Shown here: positions 2,408 through 14,031 of the stretch, piece by piece
Position numbering within the stretch: the first letter of the stretch is position 1
How the letters are laid out: every line of letters starts with the position of its first letter
Source: Candidatus Latescibacterota bacterium
Lineage (GTDB): Bacteria > JAAXHH01 > JABIQT01
Direction: 5' to 3'
DNA length: 14,031 nt
NCBI GenBank assembly: GCA_018667995.1
Contig: JABIQT010000187.1
Coordinates: 1-14,031, forward strand
Program-made: the position numbers and the translations under genes
The notes under the pieces: generated by a model
Databases searched by the model: none
The model's input: the letters and a program-made list of their open reading frames with translations, nothing else
What the model was told of the DNA's origin: nothing

Positions 2408-3829
2408 CTATGATCCCGGTGTGATCTTGAGAACAAAGACGTGGTCACACGGCTTCTGATCGGGCAACCTCACACGCAATCCCCGCGACGAGCGTGACCA
2501 TTTGAGATCGGCATTGCATCCCAATAGACGGACGCTGTCGATTTCTTGAGTGTAGAGGCGCATGTCGGTACCAAGTGACTGGATCAGCGCTTCTCCTTTG
2601 GTGGGCCAGGCCAGCAGGATGGCATAGAGCGTATCGCCTCGTCTTGTGAATCTGATGTCGCGACTGGTAAAATCATTCCGGTTCGTATCGGTGAACTCAC
2701 CGGACTCGACGCGCGTGGGACCTTCCCCAAAGACCTTCCACGGTGTCGAATCATATATGGCCTCACCATTGATCTGCATCCAGGCGCCAATTTCCAGCAG
2801 CAGAGCCTCCTCTTCCTCAGGGATGGTTCCGTCAGGCTTTGGACCGACGTTCAGAAGCAGGGCCCCGTTCTTGCTCACAATATCTGCAAGATCGCCTATG
2901 ATCTGATCGGCCGATTTGTATCCCCGTTCTGTCTTCACATACCCCCAGGACACCCGCGTCAAACTCGTATCCGTCTGCCAGAAATCGGGATTGATATCGT
3001 CCAACTGTCCGCGCTCTACATCGAACACGGCGGCTTGTGGCGGAAATGCGTCGAACTTGTAATTGATGGCCACACCACGTTCCCATTGGGCTGCCCTATT
3101 GTAGTAATAGGCCGCGAATCGTTTCAGATACGGTTCGAATGCCGGCTCCTTGATCCACCAGTCAAACCAGAATAGCTGCGGTTGGTACCTATCAACCAGT
3201 TCACAAGATCTCGCGAGCCAGTCATCCAGGAATTCCTGATTGGGCTGTGTGTCCCGGTGCTGGGCAGGTCCGTAGAACGCGGCATACTTTGGATCCTGCA
3301 CATCGGATTCGAAGTCCATGCCACCGTTCATAAACCACCAATGCTCCGCACGATGACTCGATACCCCGAAGGTCATCCAATGCTTGCGCACAGCCTCGGC
3401 CAGCTCGCCGACAAGGTCCCTCTTCGGTCCCATTTTTCCTGCACACCAGTCCGACAGCAACGTATCGTACATGGCGAAACCGTCATGATGCTCTGCCACG
3501 GGTACTACGAAGCGGGCTCCCGCCTTTCGGAAGAGGTCGGCCCATTGGTCAGGATCGTACTTTTCGGCTTTGAACAGAGGAATGAAATCCTTGTACCCGA
3601 AATCTGTATGCGGTCCATAGGTGGCAATGTGATGCTTATAGGCCTCTGAGTCTTTCTGGTACATGCTCAGCGGATACCATTCATTCTCAAATGCTGGTAC
3701 CGAATAGACTCCCCAGTGGATAAAGATGCCGAATTTCCCATCCTTGTACCAGGAAGGGACCTGGTATGCAGACAGAGAACTCCAATCCGGCTGGAACGGA
3801 CCATCAGGGACTAAGGTCGGGGATGTCAT
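2408..3829 (-). CDS. GH29 alpha-L-fucosidase
   Basis: A 473-residue glycoside hydrolase of family 29, which removes terminal alpha-L-fucose by a retaining mechanism. Family motifs in order: KFGIFIHWGVYSVPA (32-46), WYPLSMY, then KYDPDQWADLFRKAGARF (90-107), EHHDGFAMYD (113-122), the barrel strand LFWFDWWIKEP (219-229) with Asp223 as probable nucleophile, and NGALLLNVGPKPDGTIP (321-337) near the end of the barrel. The last 110 residues form the usual beta-sandwich. There is no signal peptide (the N-terminus is MTSPTLVPDG), so the enzyme is probably cytoplasmic and acts on imported oligosaccharides. The ATG at 3829 is preceded by GGGAGG at a good distance. The gene is convergent with epmC (130-base gap) and divergent from the larA-like gene. 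Linkage specificity cannot be read from the sequence. Confidence 0.95.
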   Translation of the reverse strand: MTSPTLVPDGPFQPDWSSLSAYQVPSWYKDGKFGIFIHWGVYSVPAFENEWYPLSMYQKDSEAYKHHIATYGPHTDFGYKDFIPLFKAEKYDPDQWADLFRKAGARFVVPVAEHHDGFAMYDTLLSDWCAGKMGPKRDLVGELAEAVRKHWMTFGVSSHRAEHWWFMNGGMDFESDVQDPKYAAFYGPAQHRDTQPNQEFLDDWLARSCELVDRYQPQLFWFDWWIKEPAFEPYLKRFAAYYYNRAAQWERGVAINYKFDAFPPQAAVFDVERGQLDDINPDFWQTDTSLTRVSWGYVKTERGYKSADQIIGDLADIVSKNGALLLNVGPKPDGTIPEEEEALLLEIGAWMQINGEAIYDSTPWKVFGEGPTRVESGEFTDTNRNDFTSRDIRFTRRGDTLYAILLAWPTKGEALIQSLGTDMRLYTQEIDSVRLLGCNADLKWSRSSRGLRVRLPDQKPCDHVFVLKITPGS

Positions 3830-3878
3830 ATTGCCTCCCGGTTAAGGTGGGTTTTCGGTCTTCATGCTCGCCGGAGGT

Positions 3879-3906
3879 ATTATTGTCTCCAACGAGTGCC
3901 AGGCAA
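3879..3906 (-). promoter_or_regulatory. Possible sigma70-type promoter of the fucosidase gene
   Basis: Read on the minus strand, TTGCCT (3906-3901, four of six matches to the -35 consensus) is followed after 16 bases by AATAAT (3884-3879, five of six matches to the -10 consensus). The start site would lie near 3872, giving a leader of about 40 bases ahead of the ATG at 3829. This is a consensus match by eye only. Confidence 0.4.
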
Positions 3907-4182
3907 TCTGGGGGAAAATCTCATATGTTTCAATGTATAAATCAAGCTCTGAAGTTTTCTGTTATAGATGCTTTTGGCTCAGCGACCGATTATTGGATTC
4001 GTGGGGGAGCGGGGCAAACGCCGCCAGGCCATAAGTTCGAGATAAACTTCTTTCTAACATTCTCAATCTGGCACGTGCAATCCCCTTTTCAAGCACATAA
4101 TCAAGGGCAAACACCAGAGCTTTATATCGCCCGTAAAGCCCGGCGCACCTAGCTGAGTCTTCCCGTAGCGCACGCAATCTGG
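3904..4182 (+). repeat. Three dispersed copies of CAATCTGG
   Basis: The exact octamer CAATCTGG occurs at 3904-3911, 4064-4071 and 4175-4182. In the second and third copies the similarity goes further: CAATCTGG-CACG-TGCAAT against CAATCTGG-TGCAAT, i.e. the same two blocks with or without a four-base spacer. The third copy runs into the inverted repeat TGCAATTTTGCA (4183-4194). The first copy overlaps the proposed fucosidase -35 box. They could be operator sites of one regulator; that is inference. Confidence 0.4.
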
Positions 4183-4264
4183 TGCAATTTTGCAGCAGGG
4201 ATTGTCCTGAAAAACTACAACCCGTGATGGACATCCTGAACGCCTTCGACCGAGAGAATTTCGC

Positions 4265-4292
4265 TTGAAACCGGTCGAACTGTCTGTATAAT
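4265..4292 (+). promoter_or_regulatory. Strong sigma70-type promoter of the larA-like gene
   Basis: TTGAAA (4265-4270, five of six consensus bases) and a perfect TATAAT (4287-4292) are separated by 16 bases. Transcription should start near 4299, about 52 bases before the ATG at 4351. This is the best promoter match in the window and lies in the right orientation in non-coding DNA. A 17-base tandem repeat begins two bases downstream. Confidence 0.72.
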
Positions 4293-4293
4293 C

Positions 4294-4327
4294 GAATAAC
4301 TTGCTTAACTGAATAACCTGCCTAATT
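4294..4327 (+). repeat. Two-copy 17-base tandem repeat at the transcription start
   Basis: GAATAACTTGCTTAACT (4294-4310) is followed directly by GAATAACCTGCCTAATT (4311-4327). Fourteen of 17 bases match and all three differences are C/T changes. The array covers the expected transcription start and early leader of the larA-like gene. A repressor site or a leader structure are possible roles; replication slippage is the simple alternative. Confidence 0.7.
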
Positions 4328-4350
4328 GAATCTGAGAAGAACTGACAAAC

Positions 4351-5610
4351 ATGATCCAGTTAACCGCTCCCCCGAACAGCCAACTCGATGAAGCCACGAT
4401 TCGCCAGGCTCTCATATCGGCATTAGAGGGTTGCTACCAGAAACAGAAGGTACTGGTACTGATCCCAGATCATACCAGAACGGTACCACTGCCGCTCCTG
4501 TTTCGCTGCCTGACGGAGGGCCTGCATGATTCCAGTCAACTGGACTTCATGGTGGCGCTGGGTACTCACCCTCCTCTCGATGATGTAAAGCTGCGGCAGC
4601 TTGTGGGCATTGACCAGGCGTCACGGGAGACTACATATCGGCATATCGGACTATTGAACCATCTTTGGGACACGTCCGATGCGCTGGCAACAATCGGAAG
4701 CATATCGCAGGATCACATCAGGGCGATGGCCGGTGACCGCTGGCATCCATCGCTCGGCAACGACGTCCCGGTGAGGATCAGCAAGGCCATACTCAACTAC
4801 GACCACGTTATTATCCTGGGTCCTACATTCCCTCATGAAGTTGCGGGCTTCTCCGGAGGCGCCAAGTACTTCTTTCCCGGCATTTCGGGTCCTGAGATGA
4901 TCAATACGACCCATTGGCTTGGCGCTCTGGCCGGAGTGCGGGGCACGATCGGAATCCAGGACACACCAGTGCGTGCGATGATACATGCAGCGGCGGAGAT
5001 GATCTCGACACCATCGACCCTGATAGGGTTGGTCACTGAGAATGATGGTTTGGCAGGCATGTTTATTGGAAACTACCTCGAGGCCTGGTCCGCAGCCGCC
5101 AATCTGTCGGCTGAACGACATATCATATGGGTCGATAGACCCTTTGACCGCATTCTTTCCTGCGCACCGTCCATGTACGACGAACTATGGACAGCGGGAA
5201 AAGCCATGTATAAGCTGGAACCCGCCCTCGCCGAGGATGGGGAACTAATCATTTACGCTCCAGACCTCGAGGTAGTGAGCCATGTACATGGCAAACACAT
5301 CTACGAGGTAGGGTACCATGTGTTACCTTATTTCCTCAATCAATGGAACAGATTCAAACATGTGCCTTTAGGCGTCCTGGCACACAGCACCCATGTACGT
5401 GGAGAGGGCACCTACCGTAATGAGGTGGAATATCCGCGCGCCTCGGTTTCTCTGGCCACGTCATTGCCACCGGAATCCTGCCGAAAACTATCACTCGGCT
5501 ATACCGATCCGACGACTATTGACACGTCGGAATGGAGCCACAAGGAAGAGGATGGTGTGCTATACGTCCGTAAAGCCGGGGAGATGTTATACCGAGTTCG
5601 GCCAAAATGA
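4351..5610 (+). CDS. LarA-like nickel-pincer 2-hydroxyacid racemase/epimerase homologue
   Basis: A 419-residue protein, close in length to lactate racemase LarA (about 424). LarA inverts a 2-hydroxy acid by hydride transfer through a nickel-pincer nucleotide cofactor (NPN) bound to a lysine. Family landmarks: DHTRTVP (40-46), MVALGTHPPL (67-76) with a probable catalytic His73, PHEVAGFSGGAKYFFPGI (161-178) with probable catalytic His162 and Lys172 as the likely cofactor-bound lysine, TTHWLGA (186-192) with His188 matching the nickel-ligand histidine, and TAGKAMYKLEP (281-291). The LarA family includes enzymes acting on lactate, malate and larger sugar acids, so the substrate cannot be named. 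No larB, larC or larE is here; cofactor must come from elsewhere. The ATG at 4351 has only a weak Shine-Dalgarno (GAGAAG, about 11 bases away) but follows a strong promoter. An M20 gene lies 121 bases downstream. Confidence 0.87.
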   Translation: MIQLTAPPNSQLDEATIRQALISALEGCYQKQKVLVLIPDHTRTVPLPLLFRCLTEGLHDSSQLDFMVALGTHPPLDDVKLRQLVGIDQASRETTYRHIGLLNHLWDTSDALATIGSISQDHIRAMAGDRWHPSLGNDVPVRISKAILNYDHVIILGPTFPHEVAGFSGGAKYFFPGISGPEMINTTHWLGALAGVRGTIGIQDTPVRAMIHAAAEMISTPSTLIGLVTENDGLAGMFIGNYLEAWSAAANLSAERHIIWVDRPFDRILSCAPSMYDELWTAGKAMYKLEPALAEDGELIIYAPDLEVVSHVHGKHIYEVGYHVLPYFLNQWNRFKHVPLGVLAHSTHVRGEGTYRNEVEYPRASVSLATSLPPESCRKLSLGYTDPTTIDTSEWSHKEEDGVLYVRKAGEMLYRVRPK

Positions 5611-5731
5611 CCACGCCCAAATCTCGACATAGGTCCAGACCAGTACATGAGCCCACAGAAACCGTATCAACCGCACTGGAATTCACCGCAGCGCGATAAA
5701 GAGTTCGCAATTACAGATTGGAGTAAGCCGA

Positions 5732-7063
5732 ATGGCAAATTCCTCAGAATTGAAACAGAAGGTCTGCAAGGCTATTGATGCACGCCGGGAACAGATAATC
5801 GGAATAGGAGAGTCCATTATGGACGCTCCCGAATTGGGCTTTAAAGAACAGAAAACCGCTGGGCGGGTGAAGGACATCCTGGGAGGCCTGGGACTGCAAT
5901 CCGAGAGCGGCCTCGCCATTACCGGTGTTAAGGCTGTGCTGAAAGGAGCAAAACCCGGCCCCACGGTCGCAATCATGGGCGAGCTCGACGCCCTTCAGGT
6001 TCCCGGGCATCCTCGGGCCGACGGAGATACGAATGCCGCCCACGCCTGTGGTCACAATGCCCAGATAGCCGGCCTGATGGGGGCGGCAATGGGACTTTCG
6101 CAGCCTGCTATTGTCGAGGAACTGGAAGGGAATGTAGTCTTTTTTGCGGTCCCGGCAGAAGAATACGTGGAGATCGAATACCGCATCGGACTGGTCAAGT
6201 CTGGCGCCACCTCATTTCTGACCGGCAAGCAGGAACTGGCCAAACTGGGACAGTTCGATGATATCGACATGGCCATGATGATACATACCACAGGCCCGGA
6301 TGTCTCCGAGGGCAGCATGGGCATCGGCCGTTCCAGCAACGGTTTTCTCGCCAAGAGTATTCGGTTCATAGGCAAGGCGTCCCACGCGGGCGGTTCCCCC
6401 GAAAGAGGCGTGAACGCACTCTATGCCGCACAACTCGCTCTAAGCGCAATCAATGCGCAACGCGAGACATTTCGCGATGAAGACTGCGTCCGAGTACATC
6501 CAATCATCACAAAGGGCGGTGATCTGGTAAACATCATTCCCGCGGAGGTGACGCTGGAGACCTACGTGCGTGCCAAGACCGCCGACGCGATCCTCGATGC
6601 GGCCCATAAAGTGGATCGTTCGCTCAGAGGATCAGCTATCGCCATGGGATGCAAGTTAGAAGTCGAGACGGTACCCGGCAACCTACCGTTGAGAAATGAT
6701 CCCGTGCTCGCCAACATTTTTCAAGAAAATGCAGAGACACTCTTCGGAAAAGGCACCTTTAGAGAGTACGGCCACGGTGGTGGATCGACAGATGCGGGAG
6801 ATTTGAGCCAGTTCATGCCCGTATTGCACCCGATGATGACCGGGGCGGCCGGTACCCATCATCAAACCGACTGGCATATAGCCGATCCCGATGCCGGATA
6901 TGTGGCACCCGCGAAGACGCTCGCCATGATGGCTATCGATCTGTTAGCCAATGGAGCAGCTAAGGCCCATGAGGTGATAGACCGTTTTGAGCCGATCATG
7001 TCTCGCCGGGAATACGTGAACAGGCAACAGGCTGTCTTCAAGACCGAGACATTCTCGGATTAA
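5732..7063 (+). CDS. M20-family metal-dependent amidohydrolase (AbgB/PM20D2-like)
   Basis: A 443-residue M20 amidohydrolase, likely cytoplasmic with a binuclear metal site. Visible motifs: IMDAPELGFKE (29-39), GELDALQVPGH (83-93), HACGHNAQIAG (104-114) with Cys106/His108 as metal ligands, FFAVPAEEYVE (137-147) with Glu143 as general base and Glu144 as ligand, MMIHTTGP (182-189) with His185, then the dimerisation domain opening with KASHAGGSPERGVNAL (215-230), and GTHHQTDWHIA (374-384) with the last histidine ligand. The HACGHN form and the long middle segment fit aminobenzoyl-glutamate-hydrolase-like members better than classical hippurate hydrolases. No signal peptide. The ATG at 5732 has GGAG eight bases upstream. 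It may share a transcript with the larA-like gene, though 121 bases separate them. The substrate is an amide or N-acyl compound, not identifiable further. Confidence 0.88.
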   Translation: MANSSELKQKVCKAIDARREQIIGIGESIMDAPELGFKEQKTAGRVKDILGGLGLQSESGLAITGVKAVLKGAKPGPTVAIMGELDALQVPGHPRADGDTNAAHACGHNAQIAGLMGAAMGLSQPAIVEELEGNVVFFAVPAEEYVEIEYRIGLVKSGATSFLTGKQELAKLGQFDDIDMAMMIHTTGPDVSEGSMGIGRSSNGFLAKSIRFIGKASHAGGSPERGVNALYAAQLALSAINAQRETFRDEDCVRVHPIITKGGDLVNIIPAEVTLETYVRAKTADAILDAAHKVDRSLRGSAIAMGCKLEVETVPGNLPLRNDPVLANIFQENAETLFGKGTFREYGHGGGSTDAGDLSQFMPVLHPMMTGAAGTHHQTDWHIADPDAGYVAPAKTLAMMAIDLLANGAAKAHEVIDRFEPIMSRREYVNRQQAVFKTETFSD

Positions 7064-7132
7064 TAGTCACCACCGGGCCCAAGTTCAACAGACGGTGCAT
7101 GCTCTGCACTGCCCTGAGATTCTGCAACAACA

Positions 7133-9019
7133 TCAAACCTGGCCGCTTCGCAAAGGGTTCTCTCTCGAGAACGGCTGCGTCTCAGGGCAGTTGGTGACCG
7201 GCAGCCAGGAACAATAAGGCGTACCGGCCTCACCTGCTGATCCGAAGTCGCAAAGGCGGACTGTCCGGCCCGATTCCCCCTCTACCTCGAGGAGCAGCAT
7301 AGGGGGCAACCAGTCGGTCCAGGCGACGCGCTTCGGTTTGAGACGGGATGCGTCCAATTTTGGAATATCCAGCATACACGTGACCGGATCCCAGGTTTTC
7401 GTATCTCGTACCTGCTGTTCACCATCGGCATTATCCAAATTGTATCGATGGTCGTAGGTCATGAGAATCGGCCCGCGGTAGATGGACGCCAGACCTTCAC
7501 AGTCTCTGGCACCTTCCCAGACGTGTAGGGAGAGATCCATATCCACCTCTATCGAATCGCCCTCCTGCCAGACACGCACAAGAGATAAATACCGTCCTGG
7601 CTTTACACCGGGAACGGTCTTCCCATTGAGTCGAACGCGTGTGGTCGAAGACCAATAGGGGATTCGTAGTTTCAAAGCGAATTCTGTCGCTTTGGAAGGA
7701 CTCACTGATATGATTATCTTACCCGCCACAGGATACTCCGTCTCTTGCTTAACCGTCACGTTCAAATGTCCCCGGAGTCGAGCAGTTATCTTCGAAGGTC
7801 CGTAGTAATTGAGTATCAACCCCTCTTCATCCCGCATCAACGCCCAGTCACTGAGCATGCCGAAACCACGGGGCGTATTGACGCTACAGCAATTGAGCTC
7901 CGGGGTCCCCTCGCGCGATTGAAAGACAATGTCATGGGCACTGGCACATCGCACGCCGTTCATGGGTGTATTGTACGTGGCCCAGCGACCTGTAGACGAG
8001 TGCATGCCCATAACTGAATTCACCAGGCTGAGTTCGAGCTCATCTGCCACGACTGAATTTCTGGTGAGCTTGAGCATCTCCACACTCAGAGCCGCCCACG
8101 CAATGGTGCAACAGGACTCAATTGCCGCCAGGTGATAGGGATTTCCAGTAGCCTTTTCACCAGAGGAGAACCCACCGTTATTATGTCGGTCCAATTTAAC
8201 AATGCTCCACCATATCTGTTCGAAAGCCTCTCGATAGGTATTGTTTCCGGTTATCCAGTACAGTTCGGCCAGCCCCATTATCGGGTGGAGGCTTTCCCAG
8301 CGCGGCTTCGGAGTTTCAAAAAACTCGGTGCCCTGCAACGCCTTATCCAGATAGTCTCCTGCTAAGGGTTGTCCATCTCTGCTGGCACCGAATTCCTCAA
8401 CGATCTGCAGAGAAAGATCCAGATACTTTTCCTCTTTCGTTTTTTTGTACAGAAGACAGAGGCCATGAATAGGCGCCAGATTCATCTCCGTGGATCCCGT
8501 GTCAACCAATTGAACCTTCTGTTTGCCCAGGTACTTTTCGCATAGCAGATCAGCAATTCGACGTGCGCAGGCCAAAGCCTCCGGATCCCGACATTCCTCG
8601 TCCCAGAGCACGAGACCCAGAATGGCGTGATAGTGGCCCCAAGTATCCCAGGTATTGCCGCCCAGGGCATCCGTATTGGTAAGTCGGTGCCGTTTCGGCC
8701 AAGGTCCCAGGTAACCGTCTTCGTCCTGGAGTTCTATCAGTATTCCTACGAACTCACTAAGCCACGTTTTGAGCGCCTTGTCCCTTGCGACCCGCATTAC
8801 CTGTACAGCAGATGTCAGATATTTGCCCACAAACTCACCCGCCCAGGGCACCATCTGTCGCAGTGGGGATGCATCTCGATCACGGAACATCTCCAACATA
8901 CCCGGATTGGCCTTCGGGGCGATCATCAACCACTGGTCAACCACACCTCGTAGATAGGCGCCAACTGGCCCCTCCAGCTTCATTCTGGTTCCTTTTACTC
9001 TCTCGCAGATCGGCCTCAT
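7133..9019 (-). CDS. GH127 beta-L-arabinofuranosidase (DUF1680)
   Basis: A GH127 enzyme that removes beta-L-arabinofuranose through a zinc-bound cysteine nucleophile. I chose the ATG at 9019 (628 residues): it follows AAAGGGGG, and the upstream ATG at 9094 has no ribosome site. The ATG at 8983 has AAGGAA but would cut the first strand of the fold. Numbered from 9094, the alpha/alpha barrel shows ANPGMLEMFRDRD (62-74), LQDEDGYLGPW (122-132) and GHYHAILGL (153-161). The zinc-thiolate set seen in HypBA1 is intact: Glu326 and Cys328 in AAIESCC, and Cys402/Cys403 in ELNCCSVNTPRG; Glu313 in SSGEKATGN is the likely acid/base. The C-terminal 230 residues are beta domains. No signal peptide, so probably cytoplasmic. 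It is convergent with the M20 gene and divergent from the dehydratase gene. Confidence 0.93.
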   Translation of the reverse strand: MRPICERVKGTRMKLEGPVGAYLRGVVDQWLMIAPKANPGMLEMFRDRDASPLRQMVPWAGEFVGKYLTSAVQVMRVARDKALKTWLSEFVGILIELQDEDGYLGPWPKRHRLTNTDALGGNTWDTWGHYHAILGLVLWDEECRDPEALACARRIADLLCEKYLGKQKVQLVDTGSTEMNLAPIHGLCLLYKKTKEEKYLDLSLQIVEEFGASRDGQPLAGDYLDKALQGTEFFETPKPRWESLHPIMGLAELYWITGNNTYREAFEQIWWSIVKLDRHNNGGFSSGEKATGNPYHLAAIESCCTIAWAALSVEMLKLTRNSVVADELELSLVNSVMGMHSSTGRWATYNTPMNGVRCASAHDIVFQSREGTPELNCCSVNTPRGFGMLSDWALMRDEEGLILNYYGPSKITARLRGHLNVTVKQETEYPVAGKIIISVSPSKATEFALKLRIPYWSSTTRVRLNGKTVPGVKPGRYLSLVRVWQEGDSIEVDMDLSLHVWEGARDCEGLASIYRGPILMTYDHRYNLDNADGEQQVRDTKTWDPVTCMLDIPKLDASRLKPKRVAWTDWLPPMLLLEVEGESGRTVRLCDFGSAGEAGTPYCSWLPVTNCPETQPFSRENPLRSGQV

Positions 9020-9380
9020 GAGGCCCCCTTTCGTGTGTCGTCTCTGGTTCGCTATCCTATCGCTGCAGTAAAGATAGATGACGATTGCCTGCATACGCTC
9101 GGGTGACCGGAGCCCCCCGTGCTACAATGTCATCGAGCCGCATATGGATTTCTGTCGGTAAGATTACAGGTAGTTCATCAAGCCAACTTGTCTTGTCTCC
9201 GCCGTCATACCAATATAAATGCATACCACTGCATGCCGTATAGATTCGTAGAGATATCGTACACTAGGACACGGTAGATACCTGTTGAAAATAACGTCGC
9301 GGTACATTACCATGCAGTGATCTTGAATCAAGCCCATTTCCACGACAGTAATTTCTTATTATCTGCAAGAGGCCCATTTA
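9020..9380. other. Divergent intergenic region, GH127 / dehydratase
   Basis: This 361-base region carries control signals for two divergent genes. A weak plus-strand promoter can be proposed (TTGTCT 9193-9198, 15 bases, TATAAA 9214-9219), which would give a leader of about 155 bases. That leader contains an 11-codon open frame at 9285-9320 that duplicates the first codons of the downstream gene. No RNA gene, hairpin with a T tract, or mobile element is visible. I found no convincing minus-strand promoter. Confidence 0.55.
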
Positions 9381-10591: not shown

Positions 10592-12145
10592 ATGTCATCT
10601 CCTGACTCTTTTAAATACCAGATCCATATTTCTGTCGACGGCCACAGTCTGCTGGACATTAACAACTTCGAAATTCCGCGCAACAAGGTCACCCTCCTGT
10701 TCGGCGAGTCCGGCATTGGGAAATCCATGCTGTCCAAGGCGGTCTACGGTCTGCTTGATCCTCAAGAACTCGATGTCGTTGTTAACGAGCAGCCCTACGA
10801 TTCATACTTGGAGACCAGGGCGGCCATGGAAATGAAGGAGTACGGTTTCTTCGTCTTCCAGGAACCGTCATCGCATCTCAATCCGCTTTTGACGTTATCT
10901 GAACAGTTGCAAGAGGGCAGTCTCGCCCAGGCTGGTACGGAAGCGGAGATCCTCAAGAACCTCTGGGGATCCACCCAAGGCATGGGTGTGCGTCAGGTTT
11001 TGAGCGTCTATCCCAAACCCTACCGACCCAGCGGAGGAGAGAAGCAGCGTGTTCTCCTGGCCATGGCCTTCAAGAAAATAGAGCTGTACACCGAGGAGCT
11101 TGAGCCATCTCCGTACTCCGTGTTTGTGTTCGACGAACCCACTGGAAGTCTCGACAACGAGACTCGGGATATGTTTCTCAATGCATTGTTTAAGAAGTAC
11201 CGAAAATGTCCCTTCACGGTTCTCCTGATTACCCATGATTACTCAATGATCAGTGAGATATTCAAGAATCATGAAGACCTGGTCGATCAGATCGCGTTCA
11301 AGGAACTTACCCTGAAGAAACGCAAATTGTCCTTGAATGACTTTTACCCGCAGGATTATCTGGACTGGTTGGAAACAAATAAGGAAGGGACCAAGCGCCG
11401 AAGAGCCCATCTGAGCCGATCGCCCAAGGACGTTTTATTGAGGCTGGAGACGGGATCCATCATTTTTGGGCGGCGCCTACACACGTCAAAAGCCTCCCGC
11501 ACCGAAAAAACAAACCCGTTGATACTGAGAAAAAACCAGATTGTCTATCTGAAGGCTGCAAGTGGCGTCGGTAAAACAACAATGGCGAAGGTTGTTATGG
11601 GCCTGATGCGCTGTCGAGAACTGGATCTCAAAATCGGCCAACACAGGCTCACCGATGAGACACCAACTCGATACTGGCAGGATCATCTTTGGGGACGGAA
11701 AATTGGCATGGTCTTCCAGCATGCTGACGAGGCGCTGAATCTGAACGCCCGGGTCAAAGATATCTTCGCGGGCCTGCCTTTCCCGGAACACATCACTCCT
11801 GATTATGTAGCTCAACAGTTGGAGTCGTACTTCCCGGGAGAAGTGGACGAGATCTTCCTGAATAAACCAATAAAGCTACTAAGCGGGGGACAGAAGCAGA
11901 GACTCAATCTGCTCCGCACATTCTCATTGGATCCGGACGTCTTGATTCTGGACGAACCGCTCAATGGGCTCGATTTCCTCAGCATCAAGAAGATCATCGA
12001 TCTGCTTCTGGCAAAGCAGCAAGAGGGGAAGGGCATCCTCCTGATCTCCCACAACGAAGAGATATTTGACAGCCTGGGTACCGCGGACAAACTACACCTC
12101 AGGGCGGAGCACGCCGGATACCATCAGTCATCCTCTACGGCGTAG
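10592..12145 (+). CDS. Tandem-ATPase ABC protein (oligopeptide/YejF-like architecture)
   Basis: A 517-residue protein with two ABC nucleotide-binding domains in one chain. Domain 1: Walker A GESGIGKS (38-45), Q-loop VFQEPSSHLNP (88-98), signature PSGGEKQR (146-153), Walker B VFVFDEP (177-183), H-loop THD (His215). Domain 2: Walker A AASGVGKT (322-329), whose first Gly is Ala, Q-loop VFQHADEALN (374-383), signature LSGGQKQR (430-437), Walker B VLILDEP (450-456), H-loop His487. A basic linker lies near 241-300. The layout matches fused DppD/DppF-type ATPases (YejF, GsiA) of oligopeptide importers, but no permease or binding protein is in the window. The start is uncertain: ATG 10592 has GGTGAG about 13 bases upstream; GTG 10574 is the in-frame alternative (523 residues). 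The end overlaps the oppositely transcribed oxygenase by 22 bases. Confidence 0.88.
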   Translation: MSSPDSFKYQIHISVDGHSLLDINNFEIPRNKVTLLFGESGIGKSMLSKAVYGLLDPQELDVVVNEQPYDSYLETRAAMEMKEYGFFVFQEPSSHLNPLLTLSEQLQEGSLAQAGTEAEILKNLWGSTQGMGVRQVLSVYPKPYRPSGGEKQRVLLAMAFKKIELYTEELEPSPYSVFVFDEPTGSLDNETRDMFLNALFKKYRKCPFTVLLITHDYSMISEIFKNHEDLVDQIAFKELTLKKRKLSLNDFYPQDYLDWLETNKEGTKRRRAHLSRSPKDVLLRLETGSIIFGRRLHTSKASRTEKTNPLILRKNQIVYLKAASGVGKTTMAKVVMGLMRCRELDLKIGQHRLTDETPTRYWQDHLWGRKIGMVFQHADEALNLNARVKDIFAGLPFPEHITPDYVAQQLESYFPGEVDEIFLNKPIKLLSGGQKQRLNLLRTFSLDPDVLILDEPLNGLDFLSIKKIIDLLLAKQQEGKGILLISHNEEIFDSLGTADKLHLRAEHAGYHQSSSTA

Positions 12146-13203
12146 TCATCTCCATAGTACTTGCTGGTCGTTCGCGTATGAAATTTCACGGCTGATATGG
12201 GCTCATACTTGGCTTTCCCAAGGCCTGGCAGCACTTCGAGTATTTCTTCCTCCCAGACATATACAGCCATCGGTATGCTCACTCGGGGCGTGCCATACAT
12301 CCCTTCATCAAGGGGTTTGCTCACTCGGTGAGTCGTGGACGGCATGCGGTCGTTGGTAATCCGCTGCATGTAGTCCCCGATATTCAGGATGATACTGCCG
12401 TCTGGCGGATTTACGCGAATCCACTTCATATTCATCCGATTCAGCACCTGCAGCCCGTCGATGCCATAGGAGGGCAGTATGGTGAAAAGATCGATATCCT
12501 CGTGTCCCAACATGCGTCCTGCGCCGGACTCGGCGTCTTCGTCACTGATGGGGGGATAGTAGTTCAGTCGGAAGCCGTAATTTGTTTTCTCGAGCTTGCT
12601 ATCATAGAAGTGAGGATCCACCCCTAGATGCGTGAAGATGCTCTGCATAAGAGGGAGGATAAGCTTCTCATGGTGCTTTACGATTTCACGAAAGAACGGC
12701 TCGTACGCAGCATCAGGCCAGAAGTCATCCACGCTATAATCGGAATGTTCCCCAAAATCGAAAGCGCGTCGACAGAACACCCATCCTTCCACCAGATCGG
12801 GATGCATGCGACTCGTTTTCTTGATCGGGAAGTATCCCTGATTCACGGAACCAAAGCGAGCCGCCTCGAAGCGCATTTTGTCCTTCAGCGGAATGGTCTT
12901 GAAGAACTCGCAGACCTTTTCGTGGGCTTGCGCATAGAGCTCAGCGGGCACCTCATGCCCTTCGAGAATCACGAAGCCAATCCCCTCCATTGCCTCCCCA
13001 ATCTCCCTCGCGAACTGTGCCTTCCCCTCGGGCCCACCGTGGTAGAACTGGCTCATGTCGCACGTCGAGATCTGAGTTTCCTCATCAAATACTTCTTCGG
13101 ACGCCCCCTCCGCCAGCTGATATACCTGGTCCTTCTTAACCTGATCGAACTGTGTGAATTCTTGATTTACCGCTTTTATGCCTTTTTCCTGGGAAGTACT
13201 CAT
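12124..13203 (-). CDS. Isopenicillin-N-synthase-like Fe(II)/2-oxoglutarate oxygenase
   Basis: A 359-residue protein of the isopenicillin-N-synthase / 2OG-Fe(II) oxygenase superfamily, cytoplasmic. The N-terminal domain has the helix-strand FAREIGEAMEGIGFVILEGH (64-83) and FFKTIPLKDKMRFE (100-113). The double-stranded beta-helix core keeps the full iron triad: His234 and Asp236 in GHEDIDLFT, His292 in STTHRVSKP. The 2OG-binding pair Arg307/Ser309 in PRVSIPMAVY is also present, as is NIGDYMQRITN (274-284). The active site therefore looks intact. The substrate is unknown; relatives include hydroxylases, desaturases and ethylene-forming enzymes. I chose ATG 13203 because GGAGGGAG lies just upstream; the frame extends to an ATG at 13248 without a ribosome site. 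The 3' end overlaps the ABC gene by 22 bases, and the gene is divergent from the M19 gene (239-base gap). Confidence 0.9.
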   Translation of the reverse strand: MSTSQEKGIKAVNQEFTQFDQVKKDQVYQLAEGASEEVFDEETQISTCDMSQFYHGGPEGKAQFAREIGEAMEGIGFVILEGHEVPAELYAQAHEKVCEFFKTIPLKDKMRFEAARFGSVNQGYFPIKKTSRMHPDLVEGWVFCRRAFDFGEHSDYSVDDFWPDAAYEPFFREIVKHHEKLILPLMQSIFTHLGVDPHFYDSKLEKTNYGFRLNYYPPISDEDAESGAGRMLGHEDIDLFTILPSYGIDGLQVLNRMNMKWIRVNPPDGSIILNIGDYMQRITNDRMPSTTHRVSKPLDEGMYGTPRVSIPMAVYVWEEEILEVLPGLGKAKYEPISAVKFHTRTTSKYYGDDYAVEDD

Positions 13204-13262
13204 CTTGACTCCCTCCGCATGCCGATACCGGGTAAGGCCGGTTCTCAACGCGTGATCTCTAT

Positions 13263-13442: not shown

Positions 13443-14031
13443 GTGGAAATAAGCACACATGCCCAGCAGTTGCACACCGATTCTATTGTTATAGATCCCT
13501 GTGTACAATACCTGATCAAACGCACAGAGCGCAGCGACAGCTCCGGTCTAACAGCCGTGGGCTTGACGATTCCCCGACCGGGTGGGGACATGGTCGAGAC
13601 TATGCCCTACGTGCGCGATTTCCTCGACGTAATTGTTTCCGAGCCTCAATTCTGCCTCGGGGATACTCCTCAAGCCATTAGAGACGCACATGCCGCCGGA
13701 AAGCTCGCCCATCTTTTTCTGTCACAGGATTCGAACTTCGTCGGTACCAATACGTCGAATCTCCTGATCTGGAAGCAGCTTGGTCTGCGAATAATGCAGA
13801 TTACCTATAACGAACTTAATCCTGCAGGCGCGGGATGTCTCGAGCTGAACGATGGCGGACTGAGTCAGTTCGGAAAGGTGCTGATCCGCGAGATGGAACG
13901 CGTCGGGATTACGCTTGATCTGACCCACGTGGGGGCCCAGACATTTATGGATGCCTGCCAGGTAGCCACGGCTCCCGTCATAACTTCGCACTCAAACCCC
14001 AGAGCGATTGCCGAAAATCCTCGCAATAAGA
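13443..14031 (+). CDS. M19 (renal/membrane dipeptidase) family protein, 3' truncated, atypical metal site
   Basis: The frame is open from GTG 13443 to the right edge (196 codons shown) and the gene continues outside. The GTG start is supported by GAGGA at 13430-13434, eight bases upstream. Translation gives HTDSIVIDPC (11-20), then LIWKQLGLRIMQITYNEL (108-125), NDGGLSQFGKVLIREMERVG (136-155), TLDLTHVGAQT (157-167) and VITSHSNPRAIAENPRN (179-195). The last four are the standard core of peptidase family M19. The two histidines of the second zinc (His162 in DLTH, His183 in TSHSN) are present. The family's H-x-D after the first strand (as in DGHND) reads Cys20-Val-Gln22, and the bridging Glu of the EGG motif reads Gln95 in LSQDS. 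Normal binuclear zinc hydrolysis is therefore doubtful. No signal peptide or lipobox at the start. It is divergent from the 2OG oxygenase. Confidence 0.85.
   Translation, partial: MEISTHAQQLHTDSIVIDPCVQYLIKRTERSDSSGLTAVGLTIPRPGGDMVETMPYVRDFLDVIVSEPQFCLGDTPQAIRDAHAAGKLAHLFLSQDSNFVGTNTSNLLIWKQLGLRIMQITYNELNPAGAGCLELNDGGLSQFGKVLIREMERVGITLDLTHVGAQTFMDACQVATAPVITSHSNPRAIAENPRNK

Follow-up and report, generated by a model that had tools for sequence, protein, structure and literature searches.

The window analysed here is 14,031 nucleotides long, comprises one entire contig (G000:C856) and ends inside a gene of the M19 peptidase fold. This gene begins with a GTG codon on the forward strand and occupies positions 13443–14031, a stop-free reading frame of 196 codons that is cut by the contig end. 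A Fe/2OG oxygenase with DIOX_N and 2OG-FeII_Oxy domains is encoded divergently from it, on the reverse strand (12124–13248). Further away, the genes of an alpha-L-fucosidase, a lactate-racemase-like protein (Lar_N), an M20 amidohydrolase and a GH127 protein follow one another at 2408–9094, and a PhyH dioxygenase is found at 744–1553.

The M19 fragment scores 130 bits against the Pfam Peptidase_M19 profile (PF01244), for which the curated cut-off is 26 bits, and the full-length orthologue scores 220 bits. Completion of the gene, which had been proposed in the first-pass annotation, recovered the 3' half: the missing C-terminal 148 residues are encoded in the same genome at bases 5–451 of contig G000:C210, in a piece 82% identical to residues 195–342 of the orthologue. 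The joined protein has about 343 residues, with the catalytic aspartate present as Asp254 in the C210 part and the remaining fold kept. The end of the window (..CAATAAGA) and the start of C210 (CAATATC..) have CAATA in common and then diverge, so that residue 196 (Lys) is doubtful. A comparison of window positions 14019–14031 with bases 1–12 of C210 suggests that the window's final three bases are an error of assembly at the contig end.

An AlphaFold2 model was obtained for a 74% identical orthologue (L039; pLDDT 84, residues 257–291 being poorly modelled). Its top 17 PDB matches are all M19 proteins (Z 36–44), and the next group of matches, at a Z of about 16, includes NagA and phosphotriesterase. 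Together with the profile score of the fragment, these matches confirm the M19 fold recognised at first reading.

Metal-site residues and orthologues

In the alignment, Cys20-Val21-Gln22 (13500–13508, forward strand, as are all residues below) replaces the alpha-metal motif His-x-Asp, with Cys20 (13500–13502) and Gln22 (13506–13508) in the canonical ligand columns, and Gln95 (13725–13727) replaces the bridging Glu125. Both beta-metal ligands are intact, His162 (13926–13928) corresponding to His198 and His183 (13989–13991) to His219. Arg194 (14022–14024) stands where the substrate-binding Arg230 is found, and Asp254, on C210, where the catalytic Asp288 is found. The Cys-x-Gln and Gln replacements and the two C-terminal histidines had been read correctly from the sequence alone. 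A further change, not in that list, concerns position 152 by human numbering, His or Trp in canonical M19 members, which is Tyr122 (13806–13808) in the window protein. Compared with a binuclear zinc dipeptidase, the protein thus lacks the His-x-Asp motif and the bridging Glu and retains the beta histidine pair, the Asp and the Arg.

The first-pass annotation had considered that a differently placed His-x-Asp, or a sequencing error in the first 100 codons, might account for these changes. The sole other H-x-D of the region, H11-T-D13, lies in a helix that precedes strand 1 in the model and reads H-A-A in L039; it is therefore no replacement ligand pair, and the alignment keeps the ligand columns as assigned. 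Sequencing error is ruled out by full-length orthologues in two genomes of the same order (L038 and L039, 73–74% identical over the fragment), encoded on contigs G011:C28 (a lake MAG with the record name Zixiibacteriota) and G013:C120 (MAG ERR599008_bin.45). Both carry IDPC-V-Q, LSQD, the TY motif, THVG and SHSNP, and every ligand-site change of the window protein is common to them. Between orthologue pairs dN is about 0.17–0.20, with dS near, at or beyond saturation, and the window protein is therefore under strong purifying selection.

A distant paralogue in G013 (L040, 31% identity) likewise has Cys-x-Gln and Gln, and groups in the tree with the window protein and its orthologues (support 84/95). 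The suggested Cys/Gln/Gln clade thus exists, comprising the two orthologues and L040, but the loss of H-x-D extends well beyond it to a whole branch of the family (see below). A search of GTDB r220 for a wider Cys-x-Gln clade by exact 8-residue patterns returned only the two known genomes, and plasmid searches gave no match above about 36% identity. The L040 gene (L040:1507–2556) adjoins a dipeptide-type ABC transporter, composed, as judged from sequence, of a substrate-binding protein and two permeases.

A divergent branch of the M19 family

Sixty-three M19 proteins, drawn from the search for relatives, from sampled families and from annotated plasmids, were aligned; the set is biased toward relatives of the query and is no census. 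In 33 of them the canonical combination is found: His-x-Asp, Glu and, at 152, either His or Trp. The remaining 30 lack His-x-Asp, and all 30 have Tyr at 152, a residue found there in none of the canonical proteins; their bridging position is occupied by Gln in 23, Asn in four and Glu in three. The equivalents of His198, His219 and Arg230 are invariant in both groups, as is Asp288 wherever the sequence extends that far. A maximum-likelihood tree built without the eight site columns divides the two groups by a single branch, which has an ultrafast bootstrap of 95 and an SH-aLRT of 98 and recurs in 94% of bootstrap trees; the window protein sits on the divergent side. As the position of the root is not known, a single loss is the simplest reading and not a proven one. 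Five divergent members (L010, L055, L060, L063 and L083) carry unusual combinations, either Asn-x-Glu together with Gln or a retained Glu alongside Tyr, and are possible intermediates of the ligand loss.

Among the 30 divergent proteins, invariance is limited to 11 of the 311 well-filled columns, namely six Gly or Asn together with Tyr122, His162, His183, Arg194 and Asp254, and the lost alpha-ligand columns rank 167th and 280th of 311 in conservation. Constraint has therefore gone from the alpha half of the site and been kept on the beta half, a pattern that is hard to reconcile with simple decay and fits an active site that has been retained with one metal or none. It also bears on whether Cys20, Gln22, Gln95 and Asp254 might bind a second, softer metal in a rebuilt alpha site particular to the window's own subclade. 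All three orthologues and the distant paralogue L040 have the Cys-x-Gln that such a site would use, but in the wider branch Cys occurs in only five and Gln in only six of the 30 proteins at those places, and Gln is a poor ligand; we regard a rebuilt site as very improbable.

On the sequences compared, the divergent branch appears to be a sister of canonical M19, large, widespread and little described, with members in bacteria and haloarchaea. The window protein is a genuine oddity and was rightly described as such, although it is ordinary inside its own branch: the changes are not particular to it, since loss of H-x-D is the rule across a branch that includes a solved structure, 2i5g. This structural-genomics entry, an "amidohydrolase" of Pseudomonas aeruginosa, is the nearest to the window protein in both sequence and fold. 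It is the best structural match of the L039 model (Z 43.8, rmsd 1.9, 316 residues), and its whole-length profile match reaches 440 bits, against 207 bits for the best canonical dipeptidase. It shares with the window protein the loss of H-x-D (here GLI), the exchange of Glu for Gln, the Tyr at 152 and the retention of both His, the Arg and the Asp, but the two are about 30% identical and Leu-x-Ile is found where the window protein has Cys-x-Gln. A literature search for 2i5g or for PA5396, which we take to be the same protein, found no paper, and the structure is apparently unpublished.

The M19 membrane (renal) dipeptidases DPEP1 (1itq), Sco3058 (3id7) and GliJ (5lwz) resemble the window protein in fold (Z 40–41) and in the beta-site His pair, Arg and Asp, but they keep H-x-D, the bridging Glu and His/Trp152, all three of which it lacks. 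PvdM (3b40) also has the M19 fold in common (Z 41.2), with a sequence score of 175 bits against the 440 of 2i5g, and no special relation of it to the window protein was found.

Active site and possible chemistry

With one half of the metal site lost and the other unchanged, the protein is probably a one-metal hydrolase and no dipeptidase. We give a probability of roughly 55% to the reading that the divergent branch has lost the alpha site while keeping the beta half and fixing the Tyr, and that the window protein hydrolyses a small nitrogen-containing metabolite with one metal. The alpha-metal site, made up of His-x-Asp and the bridging Glu carboxylate, would have been lost, most simply once, with the beta half (two His, the catalytic Asp and the Arg) remaining fully constrained and the Tyr becoming fixed beside it. 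The window protein would then most likely be a cytosolic enzyme in which His162, His183 and perhaps the oxygen of Gln95 hold a single divalent metal, which would polarise an amide-like or ester-like bond; Asp254 would activate water, and Arg194 and Tyr122 would hold the substrate or its oxyanion. We infer in this way the number of metals, the chemistry and the kind of substrate, which would not be a dipeptide. The three possibilities raised in the first-pass annotation (one metal, a different chemistry or no catalysis) were the right ones to consider, and the conservation pattern favours either of the first two over the third.

E. coli NagA, which has Gln-x-Asn instead of His-x-His, functions with one metal and an Asp (PMC6016474). 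Like the window protein it is a barrel hydrolase that has lost the first metal motif and has one metal site left, but it belongs to a different family (Z 16.6, 13% identity) and would serve as a mechanistic analogy, not as a family placement. NagA retains a Glu ligand where the window protein has Gln95, so that the latter may be at most NagA-like in action; as Gln is the weaker ligand of the two, the beta metal might also be missing.

In that case the invariant His-His-Asp-Arg-Tyr set would itself bind and convert the substrate, as a metal-free lyase, isomerase or hydrolase. Such an enzyme would agree with the weakening of the remaining site by the Glu-to-Gln change, with the Asn at the bridging position of one subgroup and with the fixed Tyr, a possible acid–base residue. 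We nevertheless consider it rather unlikely, as the beta-site His pair is kept in 30 of 30 proteins, as metal ligands should be, and three members still have Glu.

Gene neighbourhoods

Twelve annotated loci of relatives were inspected, and most lie in operons that also encode ABC or TRAP transporters along with FAD oxidoreductases, aldehyde dehydrogenases or aminotransferases; amidohydrolases are also among the neighbours of divergent-branch members. One further locus, from Halomonas (L037), has the order M19, DUF5943, dgcA-like, DUF3483/Fe-S and ETF, which is that of the pepD_hp_dgcAB arrangement in Vibrio natriegens and P. aeruginosa (PMC12093977). The divergent branch includes the "dipeptidase" that precedes dgcAB in glycine-betaine clusters, and a list of the RoxR regulon of P. 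alloputida contains the "dipeptidase" PP_0308 alongside dgcA and dgcB (PMC10963909). Taken together, the transporter/oxidoreductase and dgcAB neighbourhoods point to a role of the branch in small-molecule catabolism.

These neighbourhoods also speak against a pseudoenzyme, a non-catalytic binding or scaffold protein, which we hold to be improbable. Three of the five canonical ligands are gone, and human DPEP3, with fewer changes than the window protein, is reportedly inactive according to the paper on PDB 6vgo; both points would favour such a protein. The catalytic Asp, the Arg and both His, however, do not vary between proteins that are about 30% identical or between domains of life, and the relatives are located in catabolic operons.

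The one-metal reading has a point against it in that no catabolic neighbour is conserved among the three genomes of the window clade. Close relatives of 2i5g, such as the Halomonas protein, are found in dgcAB clusters, whereas the window gene lies outside them. Tentatively, and at odds well short of even, the "membrane dipeptidase" branch might form a distinct class of one-metal hydrolases in small-molecule catabolism, within which the window subclade would have rebuilt the vacated alpha site as Cys-x-Gln for a substrate or metal of its own.

The divergent branch merits attention because it is annotated as dipeptidase with half of the metal site gone and the other half untouched, and in many genomes the "membrane dipeptidase" label stands on proteins without the defining two-metal site. 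The diagnostic Tyr and the half-kept site offer a simple rule for separating these proteins from true dipeptidases, and because members are co-located with dgcAB and with transporter operons, their actual substrates can be tested.

That the divergent 2OG oxygenase and the M19 protein jointly modify a small molecule, as raised in the first-pass annotation, is not supported. The oxygenase has a 78% identical orthologue in G013, on contig C38 and thus apart from the M19 gene on C120, in whose flanks no 2OG oxygenase gene was found; G011 has no orthologue, its best match being 28% identical. The clade therefore does not keep this neighbour in either genome. In G011 and G013 an AmrS-type radical SAM gene lies beside the M19 gene, but in the window's genome it is on contig C824, and as both candidates are unlinked in some of the three genomes, the window clade has no conserved partner among them. 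Two of the three genomes have ankyrin-repeat genes close to the M19 gene (G000:C210:512–1852 and L039:1768–3858), the latter fused, as judged from sequence, to a sigma-factor-like N-terminus.

Elsewhere in the window, positions 1744–2277 of the forward strand encode EpmC, the elongation factor P hydroxylase (PF04315, 181 bits). A search of 14 relatives from the same order did not find EpmC, and of 14 control genomes E. coli alone has it. EF-P is present in the window's genome.
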